Under the pieces are notes generated by a model that was not told the origin of the DNA, ran no database searches, and worked only from the letters and a program-made list of their open reading frames with translations. Positions 6,707 to 23,479 of a DNA stretch of 61,849 nucleotides are shown here, piece after piece; the stretch's first letter is position 1; each line of letters starts with the position of its first letter. This DNA is from Thermoplasmata archaeon (lineage in GTDB: Archaea; Thermoplasmatota; Thermoplasmata; Methanomassiliicoccales; Methanomethylophilaceae), in contig SUSY01000007.1 of NCBI GenBank assembly GCA_015063185.1, forward strand, positions 1 to 61,849. Reading direction: 5' to 3'. The translations under genes were made by a program, and so were the position numbers.

Positions 6707-6749
6707 TCACCTCTTCAGCCTGAGGAGGAATCCACAGAGTCCGACGATG
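6707..6749. repeat. 43-bp sequence repeated exactly at 13725-13767
   Basis: The last 43 bases of this gene (ending in LLRLKR-stop) are identical, base for base, to 13725-13767 at the end of the decayed paralogue. After base 43 the two diverge abruptly, marking the edge of a deletion in the second copy. Indicates recent duplication or gene conversion. Confidence 0.85.
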
Positions 6750-9700
6750 ATGACGATGAACGCGATGATGGAGACGAGATAGTCGTTTCCTGCATCTTCA
6801 TCGTCCGCGACGGTACGCTCTCCAACGAACCAGTAGGAGAAGTGGGTGGTGTCGAAGGTGACCTCACCGGTATCTGCATCGTAGTATGCAGGATACTCCA
6901 CGGTCCTGTAGTTGGCATCATCGATCCAGAACACGGAGATGTTGTCCATCTTCTCTCCGACATCGGGCTGGTATGCGAAGGTGACGGTGACGGTGTTCTC
7001 TCCGAAGTCGGAGACGGTCTCTCCGCCTACGCTGAGGTTGAGGGAGATGATCTTCTTACCCTCTGCGTACTCCGCAACCCTTGCGGAAACGTCCTTGTTC
7101 TCGATGACCTTAACGGAGATCTCGACCTCTCCCTCGAGTCCGTCGAAGACGGTTGTGGGGATCTGGACGGACCAGTTGTCGGTCTTGACCTGGGCAACGT
7201 CCACATAATCGAATGCGGACTTGTCAACGGATATAGTACCCTCGGTCTCGATGACGGTCAGTTCGTACACTGCAGTGTAGACAGCATCATCCGTCGCTGC
7301 AACGACCTCGTTGTCCCAGCCTACGAACTTGTACTCGTAGTCGTAACCTCCCTCGGGGAGAGGGACGGCTTCGAGAGGGAACTTAGGAACGTCACCGTTA
7401 CGTACGTTCTCGACATAGGAACCAACAGCGGTGTTCCAGGTGATCTTATGGTAGACGTTATCGATGGACAACCACTCGCCAGCGGCCGCCTCGAACACTG
7501 CCTTATCAGGCACGAGACCTGCAAAAAGGGCGAGGGGATTGAATCCGGTAGCGATATTGATCTCGGTTCCGAACAAGGACGTGGTCGCATCGGACACATC
7601 CGCATATCCTACCTGATCGAGTCCTTCACAGAGCTCGTAGATGAACACGTCGTAGACGGCGTACAGTTTATCCAGGATATCTCCGGCGGGGATCGAGATG
7701 TCCTCGTCGATCTTCACATCCACGCCTCTGAACTCGTTGTACGAGCCGTAGACGATGATGGATGCATCAGGGTTGATCTCCTCAAGCATTCCGATGAGGT
7801 ATACGACGGATGCGTAGGATCCGATGTACTCATAGATGGCCCTGTCCAACACGATGGGGATGATGTCCGTGATGAACTCGTCACCGATTTCGGCCTTCTC
7901 GAGCGTCTCCATGATAGTGGGGGCTATTTTGTCCCTAATCTTGTTGATGAGCACAGGAAGGTCCTCTCCGAGGATATCCGAGTATGCGGCGTAATCCATC
8001 GGCTCCACTTCCGAAAGATCTTTGCTGTCGGAAAGCGCCATGAGTCCCATCATGAGAGCAGGGGTGTTTCCTGAATTGGATGCGATGTGGATGACATCTG
8101 CGCCCTTCAAGGATGCGATATCGGCCTCATCGAACTCACCGATCAGATCGTGGAGTGTCTTCGAAATATCATCGCCATCTGCATAGAACGATGAGAACAC
8201 GCCTCCGATGTACACGGACTCGTACTGGTCTGCAGGATCGAATCCCATGTACATGACGTCGTCACTGTAAGTGAGGTAATCGTCCGCGAGATCGTGCAGT
8301 ATTGCCCATCCCATGGATGCTGCGAGTGTTGCAGTGGAAACATAGCCATCGTAGGGCTTGTAACCTTTCTCGGTCATGACTTTGTTGAGCTCATCGAAGA
8401 ACACCTCGATGGCCTCGGTGAGATCATCCATAGCCTCGATCAGATAGGTCCTGTTGAGGTTGTCGAGCGGTGCCTCCATAAGGTGTGCTTCAATGGCGGA
8501 AGCAGTCTCCATGAGGGCACCGAAGGATTCGAGTTCATAGAGGAATCCCGGGGGAGCATAGTCGAGAAGCATATTGAGTCCGAAACCACCGAGCATTCCG
8601 AGTCCTGCACCGGAAAGTGCATCCTTCATGGACTGTATGATTACGGATTCTACATGTGTGATACTGGATGTGTTCTCCACAATCGAATTGAAGATGATCT
8701 TGTGACCCAACTCGCATGGGTGGGACATAAGGTTCTCCGCAGCCTGGGTGTTGAAGAACACGAACAGGATGGCCAACTCCTCGTTGCTGAATAGTGTGGT
8801 TGTCTCCCCACCCTCATCGGAAAAGACGACCTTGCATCCCGTCTCATCGCTGACGACGGAAACGTCCGCTCCATCAGCAGAATCTGCCTGGATCCTGAAC
8901 ATTGTTTCGACGAAATTATCGACAATCGAACGGGCAACAGGGATGAGTCCCGATGCTCCTGCGAAATCCATGTACTTTGCACCGAAGATGCAACTGAGGA
9001 GCTTGGTAAGATTGTCATCGACGTTGAGGTAATCATAGACACCCATGTACTCGTTGACGAATGGGGACATGTTGGTCTCGGAATTCGGAACGGAACTCAG
9101 ACCAAGCTCGGTCTTAATCTCCTCCATGGATTTACCCAACACCTTCTCCATAAGACAGACGAGTGAGTGGACAAATACTCTCTTGGCATCATCGCTGAGT
9201 TCGTGCTCCTCGTTGAGAGAGATTCCATATTCGTCGTAGAACATGGGCATAACCTCTACGATATCCACGTGCTGGGTATACGGTGCCCAGGGGGACAGGT
9301 ACTTGGTGTAACTGTTGGCGATACCGAGGATGGCATCGTAGATCTCTCCGAATGGGATCGGAGTACCCATGAGATCGAAGACAACGCCGGAGTAATTGTT
9401 GTATGCATCGAGGACGACTACGGATGCGGAGGGATTCTCCTGGTGGATCCACTCCATTATCGCATCGAAGTTGGAGCAGTGTGCGATGACTCCGAATGCA
9501 GCACAGTCTGCGAGATTTGCGATAAGTGGCAGGTAATCAGCTACAGCTTCCATCTCCTCACCGAGTTGTTCCATGAGCATGTCGGATACTAGGGTCTTCA
9601 CACCCTCCATCAACTCGATGTACTCGTCATCGAGGTAACAGTCATAATCCAATATGATCTTAGAATTAGACCCCGTCATCATGTTGAAGAACGGAAGCGA

Positions 9701-10282
9701 AAACGCATATCCAATATCATAGTGGTACTGATATGTGATCAGGTCCGCATCCCTGAGGTTCTTCTTGTAGTAGTCGATCATCTCCTGTTTGGTATCGATA
9801 CCGAGGGAGGGATCAATGGCATCTATGGCAAGTTCCAGCCTGTGGTCCAAAGAACCTTCGTCGATAAGAGTGTCACGGACGTAATCGTCATCTAGGAGAC
9901 TCCTCAACTCAGCGCTGCGGAGTCCGCTGATCGCCATCTGATAGAATTCCACATCAGTTACGTCCTTTCCGGAGAGCTCCGAGAGGAGTTCCTTGTCCTT
10001 CGCAAGCTCTGCGGTGTAACTGAATGAATCCTCCTGAAGGAATCCGAAACAGTTCTTGTAGACTCCGTCTGAGTCCTCATAATAATATCCAGCCGATCCG
10101 AAGGCATTCACCATCGAATCACCGAGGGACACATATGTGAATGCGTCATCGGACGATTCGGAAGCGAATGCTTCTTCTCCATTCCAATTGACAATTGCAG
10201 GGCTGAAAGCGCATAACAACATACAGGCCGAAATCAATACGGCCAGCGCCCTACCCCTCAAATCGCGTTGCGTACTTTTCAT
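6707..10282 (-). CDS. Exported SGNH/GDSL-like surface protein with InlB-type repeat and C-terminal anchor
   Basis: 1191 aa. Signal peptide/anchor at residues 10-32, then an SGNH-hydrolase-like domain: block I SLGDSM (GDS at 54-56) and a block V-like SHPCELGH near 520, which would supply the catalytic His. The usual GxND block is not obvious, so activity is uncertain. A second half (about 700-950) repeats the first in degenerate form; NPDASIIVYGSYNEFRG mirrors NPSASVVVLDAYNNYSG, but the second copy has no GDS. Then an InlB/Listeria-Bacteroides-type repeat (YKFVGWDNEV ... TAVYEL, about 985-1012), a beta domain, and a C-terminal membrane helix ending LLRLKR. The ATG at 10282 has GGAGGTT 6 nt upstream. 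Paralogue of 16141-18612 and of the decayed copy at 13725-14270. Acts outside the cell; substrate unknown. Confidence 0.8.
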   Translation of the reverse strand: MKSTQRDLRGRALAVLISACMLLCAFSPAIVNWNGEEAFASESSDDAFTYVSLGDSMVNAFGSAGYYYEDSDGVYKNCFGFLQEDSFSYTAELAKDKELLSELSGKDVTDVEFYQMAISGLRSAELRSLLDDDYVRDTLIDEGSLDHRLELAIDAIDPSLGIDTKQEMIDYYKKNLRDADLITYQYHYDIGYAFSLPFFNMMTGSNSKIILDYDCYLDDEYIELMEGVKTLVSDMLMEQLGEEMEAVADYLPLIANLADCAAFGVIAHCSNFDAIMEWIHQENPSASVVVLDAYNNYSGVVFDLMGTPIPFGEIYDAILGIANSYTKYLSPWAPYTQHVDIVEVMPMFYDEYGISLNEEHELSDDAKRVFVHSLVCLMEKVLGKSMEEIKTELGLSSVPNSETNMSPFVNEYMGVYDYLNVDDNLTKLLSCIFGAKYMDFAGASGLIPVARSIVDNFVETMFRIQADSADGADVSVVSDETGCKVVFSDEGGETTTLFSNEELAILFVFFNTQAAENLMSHPCELGHKIIFNSIVENTSSITHVESVIIQSMKDALSGAGLGMLGGFGLNMLLDYAPPGFLYELESFGALMETASAIEAHLMEAPLDNLNRTYLIEAMDDLTEAIEVFFDELNKVMTEKGYKPYDGYVSTATLAASMGWAILHDLADDYLTYSDDVMYMGFDPADQYESVYIGGVFSSFYADGDDISKTLHDLIGEFDEADIASLKGADVIHIASNSGNTPALMMGLMALSDSKDLSEVEPMDYAAYSDILGEDLPVLINKIRDKIAPTIMETLEKAEIGDEFITDIIPIVLDRAIYEYIGSYASVVYLIGMLEEINPDASIIVYGSYNEFRGVDVKIDEDISIPAGDILDKLYAVYDVFIYELCEGLDQVGYADVSDATTSLFGTEINIATGFNPLALFAGLVPDKAVFEAAAGEWLSIDNVYHKITWNTAVGSYVENVRNGDVPKFPLEAVPLPEGGYDYEYKFVGWDNEVVAATDDAVYTAVYELTVIETEGTISVDKSAFDYVDVAQVKTDNWSVQIPTTVFDGLEGEVEISVKVIENKDVSARVAEYAEGKKIISLNLSVGGETVSDFGENTVTVTFAYQPDVGEKMDNISVFWIDDANYRTVEYPAYYDADTGEVTFDTTHFSYWFVGERTVADDEDAGNDYLVSIIAFIVIIVGLCGFLLRLKR

Positions 10283-10288
10283 ACGTTT

Positions 10289-10342
10289 AACCTCCGCTCT
10301 TTGAGCATCTGGCACAGATATCCAATACAACTAATATATACC
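10289..10342 (-). promoter_or_regulatory. Promoter and conserved hairpin leader of the first SGNH gene
   Basis: A TATA box (TATATATTAG, 10331-10342) predicts a start near 10310, so the mRNA would begin at the small hairpin GCTC-AAA-GAGC (10296-10306), which directly abuts the ribosome binding site GGAGGTT (10289-10295). The same 13-nt core (TGCTCAAAGAGCG) is found at the equivalent place before the paralogue at 16141-18612. Confidence 0.6.
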
Positions 10343-16140: not shown

Positions 16141-18612
16141 TTATTTCCTCATCCTGAAGAATATGGCGAGACCTGCGATCGCAACGACTGCCACACCGGC
16201 ACCTCCACCGATCAACAACCAGTTGGTCTCGGACTCGTCTTCATCATTGTCCCCACCAACGGCCTTCAGATCTTTGGTGAGCACTTCATTCACTTTTAAC
16301 TTGATATATTCCGTATCGGGCCTCAACTTGCTATCCTTACCTTCCTCATTGAAGATGCCAGCAATCGTCAGAACATTGAGATTCTTCGTCTCAATCCTGG
16401 AGGCCATATCAGACACGTCCACATAGACGACGTCCTCGATGGCATCGCAGTATTCTCTCAGAAGTACGTTGATAGCGGTCACGAGTATTCCGTAGTACTC
16501 GCCCAATGGGATTGATGGAATATCGCCCCCAATGTTCAAGGTGGTTCCCTCAAATGGATTGAACGCGCCGACGAAAAGGATGGTCGCATCCTCGTTGAGA
16601 TCCTTCACAAGGTCGACGACCTCGAATGTGCTGATCACCGTGCTCATGTACGTATATACAATCGAATCAACCAAATTCATGGCCATTTCGGACATGTTAC
16701 CCATTTCCATGGAGGTCAACAATTCCTTCACCACAGGTCCGATATTGGTCCTGAGATCGCCCAGGTATCCCGTGAGATCCTCTCCCAACAGGTCGGTGTA
16801 ACGTGAATATTTACTACCCTCGGGATCAAGATCGGCAAACAAACCCTTGATCACCTGATACGGATTACCGGAATCGACCTCGATGACGATCACGTTGTTG
16901 TTCTTCACCCTGTTGATGAGGTCATTGGCACAACCATCATCGAATTCCACCATCCCATCGGACTCCGTACCCCCGAGGAGGTCCACGATGTCCATCAGAC
17001 GGACCTGCGAGTCCAACAAATCGGAGACAAAGTTGGCGCTCACGTACTGGGTGGAACCCTTTCTGATGTATGTGGAATCCTTACCGTTGATGATGGCATC
17101 ATATATCTGGACATGTCCCTCGTTGGATGGATGACACATGAGCGCCTCTGCGTTCAGGAGGAACAAAGAGACCCACATCAGGGAAAGCTGAGCCTTACTG
17201 AACTCCATGTCATCGACCTTCACGGTACCGGCCACATCGTCGTACTGTACAGTGGCGCCATTGTGGATCAATTCCAGGACAGCAGCGGCGTTGGCCTCGA
17301 GATCGTCGAAATCTCCCTCGATGGAACCGGACATGAAGGTGTCGTAGTCGAATTCTGACGAATTGAATATAGCATGAAGGAAGGTGGTGAGACCATTATT
17401 CGCATCATATTCGTCGTAGATCTCGACGAGATCCTTGTAAGGAGTGTTCTTCAACTCCTCCTTCTCCCAGAGCAGGGTCGCATATACGGCCGACCTCTTG
17501 GTGTTGTCATCGAGATGGATGTCATTCAAATCCACATCCCTGAATTCGGTGGCAAACAAGGGAATCTCATCGTATATATCGACATGGTACACATCATCCG
17601 AGTACTGTGAGAAATGTTTGGTGTAACCGTTGGTAATCTCGAGGATGAGGCCATAGATCTTTCCCAATGGGACCGTTATATTCTCGTACACCAGATCCAT
17701 ATCACCGAAAGTGTTGTACGTATCTATGACTGCGATATGGACATCGGGATTGTTGGCGAGCATCCAACCGATGTTGGCATCGAAGTTATCGCAATAACTG
17801 ATGACGATGTAGAGGACTGCCTCCGCAATGGACCTTGCAAAATCGATGATAGGTTCATAATCGACATCAAGTGGTGACTCCTCCTCGATCATGTCGAGGA
17901 TCTCCGTGAATATGGATTCGATGTACGAGTCCATCTTATCTATCTGATCCTGGGAGAGGTAGGACTCGAAGGGCAACGCCTTTTTCTCATCAAGTCCTAT
18001 GAACTCCATGATGGTTTTGGATAGCACCAGGCCAAAATCATAGAAGTAGTTGTACGTGATGAAATCGGCTTCTTTTATCCTATCTTGGAAGTACTCCCTC
18101 ATACCCTGATACGTGGTCTCATAACCAACAGTATCCAATGCGGCAATGGCATCCTCGATCAGATCGAGGTTCTTACCAGCCTTGAAATCGACGTGATAGG
18201 TATCAGAGAAATCATCATAGAGCATCGACCTCAATTCAGGAGTACGCATTCCGCTGACTGCGAGCATGAAAGGATCATCGGAAACGTTATCGAAACGACT
18301 CTCCAGATACTGCTTCAGCATGTACGGGTACGTTCCGACGGTATCCATCATGAAACCTTTGCGGTTGTCATCCATACCATCGACATTGGGCGCATATCCA
18401 TCACCGTTGTCGAGAAAGTATTCGGCGAGACCGAAACCGTTGGACATGGAATCTCCAAGCGCGACATAGACGAACTCGTCATCTCCAGAAGCTGCACTGA
18501 GCCCGTCATCATTCGAACTTATAATCGCCGGGGAGAGAACACACAAAAGCATACATGCCGTAACGAATACTGCAAATGTTCCCACCCTCAAATCGCGCTG
18601 CATACCTGTCAT
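16141..18612 (-). CDS. Exported SGNH/GDSL-like surface protein, C-terminally anchored
   Basis: 823 aa, paralogue of the protein at 6707-10282. Signal peptide at residues 10-32 (FAVFVTACMLLCVLSP). SGNH-like domain with block I ALGDSM (GDS 53-55) and block V-like CHPSNEGH at about 495. The second half resembles the first without its GDS (NEDATILFVGAFNPFEG against NPDVHIAVIDTYNTFGD), again an internal duplication. It lacks the InlB-type repeat of the longer paralogue. An acidic linker precedes the C-terminal helix (LLIGGGAGVAVVAIAGLAIFF) and RMRK. ATG 18612 aligns with the paralogue's start and has GAGGGTT upstream. The acyl-CoA synthetase follows after 13 nt. Outside-facing; an esterase or acyl-hydrolase role is plausible but unproven. 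Confidence 0.8.
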   Translation of the reverse strand: MTGMQRDLRVGTFAVFVTACMLLCVLSPAIISSNDDGLSAASGDDEFVYVALGDSMSNGFGLAEYFLDNGDGYAPNVDGMDDNRKGFMMDTVGTYPYMLKQYLESRFDNVSDDPFMLAVSGMRTPELRSMLYDDFSDTYHVDFKAGKNLDLIEDAIAALDTVGYETTYQGMREYFQDRIKEADFITYNYFYDFGLVLSKTIMEFIGLDEKKALPFESYLSQDQIDKMDSYIESIFTEILDMIEEESPLDVDYEPIIDFARSIAEAVLYIVISYCDNFDANIGWMLANNPDVHIAVIDTYNTFGDMDLVYENITVPLGKIYGLILEITNGYTKHFSQYSDDVYHVDIYDEIPLFATEFRDVDLNDIHLDDNTKRSAVYATLLWEKEELKNTPYKDLVEIYDEYDANNGLTTFLHAIFNSSEFDYDTFMSGSIEGDFDDLEANAAAVLELIHNGATVQYDDVAGTVKVDDMEFSKAQLSLMWVSLFLLNAEALMCHPSNEGHVQIYDAIINGKDSTYIRKGSTQYVSANFVSDLLDSQVRLMDIVDLLGGTESDGMVEFDDGCANDLINRVKNNNVIVIEVDSGNPYQVIKGLFADLDPEGSKYSRYTDLLGEDLTGYLGDLRTNIGPVVKELLTSMEMGNMSEMAMNLVDSIVYTYMSTVISTFEVVDLVKDLNEDATILFVGAFNPFEGTTLNIGGDIPSIPLGEYYGILVTAINVLLREYCDAIEDVVYVDVSDMASRIETKNLNVLTIAGIFNEEGKDSKLRPDTEYIKLKVNEVLTKDLKAVGGDNDEDESETNWLLIGGGAGVAVVAIAGLAIFFRMRK

Positions 18613-18618
18613 GCGTAT

Positions 18619-18668
18619 AACCCTCGCTCTTTGAGCACGATGTCTATTACAGTACTGGTATATTATAG
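18619..18668 (-). promoter_or_regulatory. Promoter and conserved hairpin leader of the second SGNH gene
   Basis: TATA box CTATAATATACC (18657-18668) predicts a start near 18637, exactly where TGCTC-AAA-GAGC begins (18626-18637). The ribosome binding site GAGGGTT (18619-18625) abuts the hairpin. Over 27 nt this leader differs from the one before 10282 at only a few positions. Confidence 0.6.
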
Positions 18669-18803
18669 GGTTGGGCATCTGGATAACATGTTTTGACAAA
18701 AAACAACTATTTCCATCAGAAATAGGTCAAAAGCGACATTTTCCCACATACCCATATCACTTTTAGGAAATGATGGGGGCACATGCCAAAAATAACAACT
18801 ATC

Positions 18804-20891: not shown

Positions 20892-22037
20892 TCAAAAGAG
20901 ATTGTATCCGCCACGCAGATGCTTCAGGAAATCCTTGTACCTGTACCTGGTGTTACGTGTGTTACCCTTACGGTCCAATATACCCAGATCGACCAATGCG
21001 TTGAGCTTCGTGCGTATCGTCTGTTCCCTCACGTCCGGGGCCCAACTGCACGCCTCCGCTACGGTGAACTCATCGTCTATCTGTCTGGCACATCTTGCTA
21101 TGAGACACATGTAACCATCACCGCCATCCAACCTGTCCTTGGAACCCAGATCACGAAGGGCCAACCTGTAGGATTCGTGTATCCTCATGGCGACGTACAT
21201 CGACACGGGGAAATAATCCGACTCCGCTCTGGCATAGTTCAGTAACCTGTCATACGTCTCCCTGTCCGCATCGATCAGGTCATCGTACCTGCACAGTCCG
21301 ATGTTACGAAGACCCAGATCGTGTAGGACGATCTGGAACATGGTATGGGTCACACGATTGCTCCCATACTCGAACGGATTGATGCTGGAGAATTCGGACA
21401 CGAACATCATACCAGTGGACACGGGATCGTATGGGGAACTCTTCAACCAATCCATCAGGGAATCCAATTCTGTACGGATGTACTCGGGTGGACAGGCGAC
21501 CCTGACCACACCACCGTTCTCGTCCAACACCACATGCTTCTCGGACCTGATCTCCCCGGGTATGACCCTCTCGTCCACACCGTCCATGAGCATCCTGTGC
21601 AACTCTACGATCATCTCCGCATCCCAATCCTCGGACCTTCCGATACCGTATGCGAATGCGTGCATGTTGTTGTAGATCTCCTGTTTTGGACCTCCGACGG
21701 AATCGATCACCTTACCATCCAACGCGTTGTACGTATCAAGAAAATCGATCACATCATCGGACGTCACATCCGAACCGTCCCTCACCAACGCGGTCCTGAT
21801 GTTGGAGGCATAGGAATCCTTCATCGCGAGGACGTAATCGTCCGTGTTGAGGTGGATATCATCCAACAGACGGTCCATCTCCTTGATGTCCATTATCAAT
21901 CTCCTATAGGTGGGGGTGACAGCGATCGTTGGCGAGAAGGAATACTTACGTCTGTACTGGACCGGAAAGGAAGTCACCTGGTATCTGGACAGATCGCATT
22001 TCGGTTCGAAATCGAACCTACTCAGATTGAATCTCAT
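20892..22037 (-). CDS. Fic-fold protein with degenerate active site plus winged helix (copy 1)
   Basis: 381 aa. Fic/DOC fold with an N-terminal Fic_N-like segment, then the signature loop reading INPFEYGSNR at about 219-228 in place of HPFxxGNGR: the catalytic His is Asn (N220) and GNGR is GSNR. The upstream inhibitory-helix region reads ASNIRTAL, without the Glu of the S-x-x-x-E-G motif. The C-terminal 70 residues form a winged helix (VREQTIRTKLNALVDLGILDRKG). Active Fic enzymes transfer AMP to hydroxyl side chains; this one should not. The ATG overlaps the stop of copy 2 by 4 nt (ATGA), so translation is coupled. Role unknown; a nucleotide-sensing DNA-binding regulator is one possibility. 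Confidence 0.82.
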   Translation of the reverse strand: MRFNLSRFDFEPKCDLSRYQVTSFPVQYRRKYSFSPTIAVTPTYRRLIMDIKEMDRLLDDIHLNTDDYVLAMKDSYASNIRTALVRDGSDVTSDDVIDFLDTYNALDGKVIDSVGGPKQEIYNNMHAFAYGIGRSEDWDAEMIVELHRMLMDGVDERVIPGEIRSEKHVVLDENGGVVRVACPPEYIRTELDSLMDWLKSSPYDPVSTGMMFVSEFSSINPFEYGSNRVTHTMFQIVLHDLGLRNIGLCRYDDLIDADRETYDRLLNYARAESDYFPVSMYVAMRIHESYRLALRDLGSKDRLDGGDGYMCLIARCARQIDDEFTVAEACSWAPDVREQTIRTKLNALVDLGILDRKGNTRNTRYRYKDFLKHLRGGYNLF

Positions 22038-23197
22038 ATGAAACTGCCCCCATGGTCATCCAAAGGATTGGTGATATCGGAGAAGGGTTCGGTGAACCTA
22101 TAACGTGTGTTACGGGTGTTACCCTTACGACTCAGTACCCCGCGGTCCACGAGCGCGTTGAGCTTGCTGCGTACCGTCTGTTCCTTCACATCCGGAACCC
22201 ATGCACAACAATCTGCGACGGAGAACTCGGAACCGAGATCCTTCGCGTTCTGTGCTATGATCCTCATATGAGCATCCGCACCGGAAAGAACATTCCTCTC
22301 GGTCAACCTCTCGATGGCCTCGACATACGCATCATGGATGGATTCGCATATGTGGACAACCATAGGATAGTAGTTCTGTTCCCTGAGACAATAGGTCAAC
22401 AGACTCTGGAACCTATCACGGTTCTCATAGACCCAGACCTCGTACTTGGTGAAACCTATCTCCCTAAGGCCCATCGTATACATGATCAGTTGTGCCAGCG
22501 TTGAACCGGCACGATTGTTCCCATGTTTGAACGGACGGATACCCACGAACTCTATGAAGAAGATGACCGCCGTAACGATAGGATCGTACGGTGAACCTCT
22601 GACCCACTGTAACAGGGACTGCAACTCCACCTTGATGAACTCGGGGGGACAGGTTACGATCCTCGGTTGACCGCTGTCGTCCAATATGCTGAAGTTCTCG
22701 GTCCTGAGGACGCCGGGCTCTATCTCGGGAAGTACGCCCTCCATGAGCTTCGAATGGAGCCTGATCACACTGTCCACGTTCCATGACATGCGCCCTCCGC
22801 GGCTGGATGATATGAAGGTGCGGATGTAGTTCAGGATCTCCCTCTTCCTACCGTAGATGTCATGCACCTCCTCGGAACCCTCATGCAACAGACCTACGAG
22901 TTCCAGGACATCTACGATGTCCACCGCGGTACCGTCCTCATTCAATGTGCTGGCTATGTTCGCGGAATAGGCATCCCTCATCGATGAGACGTAATCACTG
23001 TCGCTAAGGATGATGTTGCCGAGGATACGATCCATCTCGATGATCTCTGTACGGACCTGTCTGTATCTCTCATCCACCACCAGCGATGGCGAGAAGGTGT
23101 ACTTACGACGATAGTGAACTGTTCCCGGTCCGACCCTGTATCTGGACAGGTCGGTGCGTGTCCCACGCCTTACCAAGGGTATGCCTCTGCGATCCAT
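22034..23197 (-). CDS. Fic-fold protein with degenerate active site plus winged helix (copy 2)
   Basis: 387 aa, tandem paralogue of the protein at 20892-22037 along its whole length. The Fic loop reads IRPFKHGNNR at about 220-229: catalytic His replaced by Arg (R221), GNGR changed to GNNR. The inhibitory-helix region reads SANIAST, again without Glu. The C-terminal winged helix (VKEQTVRSKLNALVDRGVLSRKG) is nearly identical in pattern to copy 1. The ATG at 23197 was chosen because the TATA box (GTTTTAATATTG, 23217-23228) is centred 25 nt upstream; the leaderless start also matches the N-terminal alignment with copy 1. First gene of a two-gene operon. Confidence 0.82.
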   Translation of the reverse strand: MDRRGIPLVRRGTRTDLSRYRVGPGTVHYRRKYTFSPSLVVDERYRQVRTEIIEMDRILGNIILSDSDYVSSMRDAYSANIASTLNEDGTAVDIVDVLELVGLLHEGSEEVHDIYGRKREILNYIRTFISSSRGGRMSWNVDSVIRLHSKLMEGVLPEIEPGVLRTENFSILDDSGQPRIVTCPPEFIKVELQSLLQWVRGSPYDPIVTAVIFFIEFVGIRPFKHGNNRAGSTLAQLIMYTMGLREIGFTKYEVWVYENRDRFQSLLTYCLREQNYYPMVVHICESIHDAYVEAIERLTERNVLSGADAHMRIIAQNAKDLGSEFSVADCCAWVPDVKEQTVRSKLNALVDRGVLSRKGNTRNTRYRFTEPFSDITNPLDDHGGSFI

Positions 23198-23479
23198 GAT
23201 GTCTCGATTGTTATACAATATTAAAACTATGTCATAGTGAAGCACGGTTTGTTACGTTTAACACAATAATGTTGTAGTCAAACATATGGATTATAGAATA
23301 GAATCCATAGATGGATTGTTATATCAGATAAAACAATTCATGGAACGACATTTTCGACGTTCGTCGTATACGATTACGTCAACTACACTCTTATTACACA
23401 TGTGCGCGCGTTTGTAGATAGGATACCTTATATTGTCGGAGACGTTAGGGGACTAGTAATTACCGTTGGTGATTCAACA
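23198..23479. promoter_or_regulatory. AT-rich divergent promoter region between the Fic pair and fbp
   Basis: 282 bp without a gene. It holds the minus-strand TATA box for the Fic pair (23217-23228) and a plus-strand TATA box for fbp (CCTTATATTG, 23426-23435) preceded by ACACATGTGCGCGCG (23397-23411). Between them are inverted repeats: ATGGATT/AATCCAT about 23286-23308 and ATTGTT/AAACAAT about 23316-23338. The fbp leader would be about 20-25 nt and carries GGTGAT 9 nt before the ATG. Operator function is inferred only. Confidence 0.5.

Follow-up and report, generated by a model that had tools for sequence, protein, structure and literature searches.

A conserved tandem pair of Fic-fold, winged-helix proteins with degenerate active sites in a gut methanogen of the Methanomassiliicoccales

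Introduction

What do the Fic fold and an attached winged helix do once the chemistry of AMPylation is gone? The question is raised by two overlapping genes, hereafter A and B, in a Thermoplasmata archaeon of the family Methanomethylophilaceae. They lie in the 61,849-nucleotide stretch of DNA analyzed here (contig SUSY01000007.1, hereafter the window). Pseudoenzymes are well studied for kinases; to our knowledge, few Fic proteins act without catalysis. Among the known non-catalytic cases BepC has been tested. The locus has a probably co-translated degenerate pair, and the genus also includes single-copy relatives whose motifs are intact. The pair is thus a natural experiment on the role of the fold and the winged helix, and lets one ask why so many Fic proteins bear a DNA-binding domain. 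The frequency of such domains was noted in 2009, when the fused helix-turn-helix domains were proposed to regulate fic expression (PMC2686095). The original prediction, made from the window's sequence, held that both proteins had lost the catalytic His and the inhibitory Glu under selection for a non-AMPylating role, for example as a paired nucleotide-sensing transcription regulator or an antitoxin-like complex.

Results and Discussion

Two overlapping genes encode Fic-fold proteins with C-terminal winged helices

Genes A and B are intact open frames on the minus strand (Table 1), and the coordinates, loops and ATGA stop/start overlap first described for them were borne out. The overlap likely couples their translation. 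Both proteins belong to the Fic fold family, scoring 42.8 (A) and 36.5 (B) bits against the Pfam Fic profile (PF02661; cut-off, 24 bits). AlphaFold2 models (pLDDT of 83.3 for A and 88.5 for B) show a Fic fold and then a C-terminal helix-helix-helix-beta-hairpin. Their top Foldseek matches (probability 1.00) were the Fic crystal structures of SoFic (3EQX and 3ZEC), Dde_2494 (4RGL), CbFic2 (8CIL) and MmFic (7CB8), with alignments to the first three proteins that covered 346-382 columns. As in SoFic, a winged helix follows the Fic domain; it is modeled confidently in B and with low confidence at its start in A (residues 318-334). The view that the rest of the fold and the winged helix are well kept agrees with the models and the structural matches, apart from this poorly modeled segment. 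The winged helices are predicted to bind DNA, their recognition helix and wing carrying 9 Lys and Arg against 3-4 Asp and Glu.

Table 1. Positions of the features discussed, in the window unless a contig is named.
Feature	Position	Strand	Description
Gene A	22034..23197	-	387 aa; Fic fold and C-terminal winged helix; loop RPFKHGNNRAGS
Gene B	20892..22037	-	381 aa; Fic fold and C-terminal winged helix; loop NPFEYGSNRVTH
A/B overlap	22034..22037	-	ATGA stop/start, 4 nt; same overlap in sister at L077:1168-1171
A, degenerate FIC motif	22502..22537	-	Residues 221-232; H to R, D/E to H, G to N, second R to S; same as sister over RPFKHGNNR
B, degenerate FIC motif	21345..21380	-	Residues 220-231; H to N, D/E to Y, N to S, G to N, second R to H; sister, HPFEHGGNRVRH
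A, inhibitory-helix position	22931..22948	-	Residues 84-89, TLNEDG; canonical S-x-x-x-E-G (alignment)
B, inhibitory-helix position	21774..21791	-	Residues 83-88, ALVRDG; sister, SLVKEG (alignment)
A, winged helix	22082..22246	-	Residues 318-372; wing RKGNTRNTRYR (alignment, AlphaFold2 model)
B, winged helix	20928..21089	-	Identical wing RKGNTRNTRYR (alignment, AlphaFold2 model)
AT-rich region upstream of A	23207..23341	.	Short inverted repeats at 23207-23219, 23226-23238, 23285-23309 and 23311-23341
Sister A orthologue	L077:5-1171		76% identity to A; dN/dS 0.12
Sister B orthologue	L077:1168-2313		71% identity to B; dN/dS 0.14
Sister, aspS side	L077:2367-4317	-	Glycosyltransferase/VTT-type sequence
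Sister, fbp side	L079:2570-3224	+	Membrane-protein gene, YczE-like by eye
Other Fic gene of the genome	G000:C13:33524-33838 (L001)	-	HPFEDGNGR and SSQMEG
Large secreted protein	6707-10330	-	GDSM motif
Large secreted protein	16141-18699	-	GDSM motif
G070:C66	L228:332-1189	-	286 aa; active-site elements deleted in frame
G112:C111	L226:7424-8668	-	FIC loop QPFQGDNTMFN
G103:C60	L231:5421-6500	+	Flap hairpin deleted in frame
G109:C23	L227:3736-4044	+	103-aa open frame

The active sites of both proteins are degenerate

The FIC loops read RPFKHGNNR in A and NPFEYGSNR in B. As first noted, neither has the catalytic His (Arg in A, Asn in B), which is 100% conserved among the canonical homologues compared. 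The losses are wider: relative to HxFx(D/E)GNGRxxR, the metal-site Asp/Glu is missing, along with the second Gly and second Arg, from A, B and both proteins of the sister-species pair described below, and B of the window has also lost the motif Asn. The changes common to all four proteins and absent from canonical ones are the loss of the acidic metal position, G228 to Asn, and the losses of R232 and H215 (A numbering). Four loop residues, the Pro, the Phe and the first Gly and Arg, are retained throughout. Hence neither RPFKHGNNRAGS nor NPFEYGSNRVTH has the catalytic His, acidic metal ligand and two Arg of a Fic AMP-transferase, the acidic residue being the one that coordinates Mg2+ (PMC7842960). 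These losses make it very unlikely that either protein AMPylates by the known mechanism.

In class II and III Fic proteins, the second Arg of the motif is the partner of the inhibitory Glu. Class II proteins have the signature (S/T)xxxE(G/N), its Glu facing that Arg; the aligned positions read TLNEDG in A and ALVRDG in B, with Glu replaced by Asp in both, and the second Arg is Ser or His, respectively. The reported absence of S-x-x-x-E-G applies to this aligned position and not to all of A, which has an SKLMEG string in a different helix.

A sister species carries the same pair under purifying selection

A close relative was found only in a Candidatus Methanomethylophilaceae metagenome-assembled genome (MAG) from sheep colon, as the same tandem pair. 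Sister A has the loop (RPFKHGNNR) and inhibitory position (TLNEDG) of A, while sister B retains the His and the inhibitory Glu (HPFEHGGNR and SLVKEG), so that the B loops of the two species differ at 3 of 9 positions. The interspecies dN/dS values of A and B (Table 1), obtained at dS of ~1.4-1.5, against 0.085 for a partial aspS from the same two species, place both genes under purifying selection. Taken together, the sequences indicate that the degenerate pair is real, conserved and unusual.

Homologues of the A/B type occur in 33 of the 102 genomes of the family, in single copy in all but the two pair-bearing species, and are ~31-36% identical to A and B where full-length. In the order Methanomassiliicoccales, 47 of 147 genomes had a match and only the window genome and its sister had two; a 390-genome sample of the phylum added three genomes with two matches, their copies on different contigs. 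No other tandem degenerate pair was found in either set. No viral relatives of the pair were found, and the canonical homologues have no fixed partner gene beside them, their neighbors recurring only where few genomes share synteny. The single-copy proteins, such as those of the congeners G005 and G002, are direct, full-length homologues of A and B but differ in genomic place and in having HPFx(D/E)GNGRxGR and SxxxEG intact in nearly all cases.

The family tree joined A, B and the sister pair in one clade (support 100/100; stem of 1.61 changes per site) adjoining single-copy canonical proteins spread across the order, and the A-B split predates that of the two species. The trees were compatible both with descent of the pair from the single copy that is syntenic in G002 and G005 and with another origin. 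In the simplest reading of two species, the metal site, second Gly and second Arg of the motif would have been lost first, in the common ancestor of A and B, suggesting that ATP handling and its brake were dismantled before the His was. Because sister B keeps the His, its loss from B of the window would be late; in A it probably preceded the species split. The two His substitutions are thus separate, and not one coordinated event.

Constraint has shifted towards the winged helix

A and B are 64% identical in the winged helix and 41% in the core; among 220 canonical pairs with a similar overall divergence, none shows so large a difference (mean, -0.03). Between the species, constraint in B is strongest on the winged helix (4 changes in 53 positions, p=7e-5). 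In A, the flap and degenerate loop are the most constrained (8 of 75, p=0.0024), closely followed by the winged helix (7 of 53, p=0.056). All four proteins share the wing RKGNTRNTRYR without a single difference, yet encode it with differing synonymous codons, which rules out recent gene conversion as the source of the shared wing. Neither in A nor in B did the winged helix and the active site differ significantly in how many strongly conserved columns they retain (p ~0.3), so the argument rests on the comparison of the A and B paralogues. This shift, seen in four sequences, favors a DNA-linked role for A and B.

The pair is an insertion between two housekeeping genes

In the genomes G002, G004 and G005, aspS and fbp are adjacent and divergent, with a spacer of only ~135-170 bp. 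The A/B pair is an insertion between them, at a site that is empty in the congeners and larger in the sister. As in the window, aspS follows the pair on the same strand in the sister, but there ~2.3 kb of other genes intervene; on the fbp side of the sister a membrane-protein gene precedes the contig end. The site thus resembles a hot spot for insertions. No defense genes were recognized beside the pair.

The AT-rich region upstream of A contains short inverted repeats. In the 200 bp upstream, the best repeat was reached in 3.3% of dinucleotide shuffles and the number of repeats in 0.1%, a count in which overlapping centers enter more than once. The sister contig starts at its A gene, so the repeats are those of the window. 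Modestly in excess of chance, they are possible operators, a suggestive reading only. A regulon search with the half-site GATTGTTATACAAT was abandoned as not specific (13 matches against 1 for the reversed control in this genome, and 12 against 3 in a pair-less congener). The only other Fic protein of the genome is canonical and belongs to a different, very distant subfamily. Elsewhere, the window encodes a further two secreted proteins of very large size, which start with signal regions that resemble each other and end in a membrane anchor; by eye they look like paralogous surface GDSL/SGNH hydrolases.

A and B may work through DNA binding and dimerization

We infer that A and B are translated together and, instead of AMPylating, act as a pair by binding DNA and dimerizing, a reading to which we assign a probability of about one half. 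The two genes would go back to one tandem duplication, in which a single-copy Methanomassiliicoccales gene for a Fic-winged-helix protein, class II-like in having an inhibitory helix, was copied. The early losses in their common ancestor would have left no ATP handling and no partner for the inhibitory Glu, and the loss of the His would have followed in each gene. Made together through the ATGA overlap, A and B would most likely associate as a heterodimer, or as mixed dimers, and so offer DNA a pair of near-identical winged helices, while the Fic domain would persist as a body for dimerization or ligand binding. Such a regulator could act, perhaps, on its own promoter at 23198-23400. Selection for a non-AMPylating role, as originally proposed, is well supported by the low dN/dS and by the recurrence of the degenerate, overlapping pair in the sister; the nucleotide sensing and the antitoxin function offered as examples are not supported. 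More generally, the pair suggests that members of an AMPylating enzyme family can become gene regulators or scaffolds.

The domain order and fold of A and B are those of SoFic (Shewanella oneidensis SO_4266; PDB 3EQX, 3ZCN and 3ZEC) and of further class II Fic proteins that end in a winged helix. The FIC motif of SoFic is intact. SoFic also has the inhibitory Glu (its E73G mutant is 3ZEC), whereas A and B lack it and are paired by overlap. CbFic2 of Coxiella burnetii (PDB 8CIL) likewise joins a Fic domain to a two-stranded winged helix, and this class II protein binds DNA, which induces its dimerization (PMC10628234). Unlike the degenerate pair, CbFic2 is catalytically active (HPFDDGNGRIGR and TSAIEG) and is not paired. 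That a Fic domain can function independently of its motif is known from BepC (PMC7842960).

It is unlikely, in our estimate, that the altered loop changed the reaction instead of abolishing it, as in Fic-fold proteins other than AMPylases, leaving the pair an enzyme with A or B possibly its catalytic half. The best argument for altered chemistry is that the flap and loop of A are as conserved as its winged helix, which could also reflect a retained ligand pocket. The four loop residues kept in all four proteins, the His and SxxxEG of sister B, and the Fic2 protein of Campylobacter fetus, which has a degenerate motif and is nonetheless toxic but depends on a His that it has kept (PMC5651007), also fit an enzyme. 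Against it, the metal-, base- and phosphate-handling residues were lost together, the loop of A offers no replacement acid/base at the His position, and the B loop varies between sister species in a manner unlike that of an active site.

An antitoxin-like partner or decoy, in which the pair blocks or scaffolds a target or another Fic protein and uses the winged helix only for autoregulation, has a similarly low likelihood. One precedent is BepC of Bartonella, whose Fic domain acts on its target independently of the motif; BepC keeps the His and changes only the acidic residue (PMC7842960). AvrB, another protein of the Fic/Fido fold, has no FIC motif (PMC2686095). Both are, however, host-targeted effectors of another architecture. 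Closer in layout are the two fic genes of one C. fetus module, whose products bind each other and in which Fic1 neutralizes the neighboring Fic2 (PMC5651007); there Fic1 is canonical and Fic2 keeps its His, whereas A and B are both degenerate. The place of the island, at a site unoccupied in congeners and enlarged in the sister, would also suit accessory cargo. A plausible toxin is nonetheless wanting, and the operon has none. In FicTA modules an active Fic toxin is joined by a small SxxxE(G/N) antitoxin, but here both products are full-length degenerate Fic proteins and no small antitoxin frame was recognized in the operon. The other Fic protein of the genome, of another subfamily and with its own SSQMEG, should need no inhibitor. 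Finally, the part most conserved between A and B is the winged helix and not a Fic surface.

Less probable still is a modified SoFic-type anti-phage system. Both proteins match the PADLOC SoFic profile (E-values of 1.9e-22 for A and 5.2e-22 for B) and lie in an accessory island between housekeeping genes, but that profile, which has no stated cut-off, matches the architecture, the catalytic residues of SoFic are missing, and the neighborhood is free of recognized defense genes. Plain decay of a duplicated gene could account for several active-site losses and for a B His lost only in the window species, but we rejected it as very improbable: the frames are open and the overlap kept in two species at dS ~1.5, purifying selection argues against decay as far as two species allow, the sister has a degenerate pair rather than intact motifs facing frameshifts here, and decay would not have spared the winged helix.

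Active sites have degenerated elsewhere in the family

Apart from the pair, three degenerate homologues were found in the family, each a single MAG sequence. In G070 the inhibitory helix, flap and FIC loop are deleted in frame; 14 of 15 conserved winged-helix positions are kept, against 3 of 20 in the active site (p=4e-6). This protein nests inside a canonical clade (98/87), apart from the pair, and its degeneration is therefore independent, a parallel that favors the reading of the pair given above. A wider proposal is that the Fic-winged-helix AMPylase of the Methanomassiliicoccales was converted more than once into non-catalytic DNA binders, the pair serving as an obligately heterodimeric regulator that detects a ligand in what was once its ATP pocket; we regard this as tentative and rather doubtful. 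The very divergent G112 protein has a recognizable winged helix (11 of 15 positions kept, against 6 of 20 in the active site, p=0.018) and a very long branch of unsure placement. Its position beside the pair in the enlarged tree, where it also split A from B at the drawn root, was set aside as a long-branch effect. G103 has lost the flap hairpin and had its second motif Arg replaced, yet keeps the His (HPFDNGNGRTGM).

Milder changes were seen in a clade of genus g10 (L055, L062 and L021, from G024, G014 and G033), whose loops HPFRNGNGR, HPFRSGNGR and HPFRNSNGR keep the His and have Asn or Ser as the acidic metal residue, similar in kind to the Lys of BepC. The match of the short G109 frame to the Fic family is confined to the C-terminal part, winged helix included; the frame is either a remnant or a stand-alone domain.
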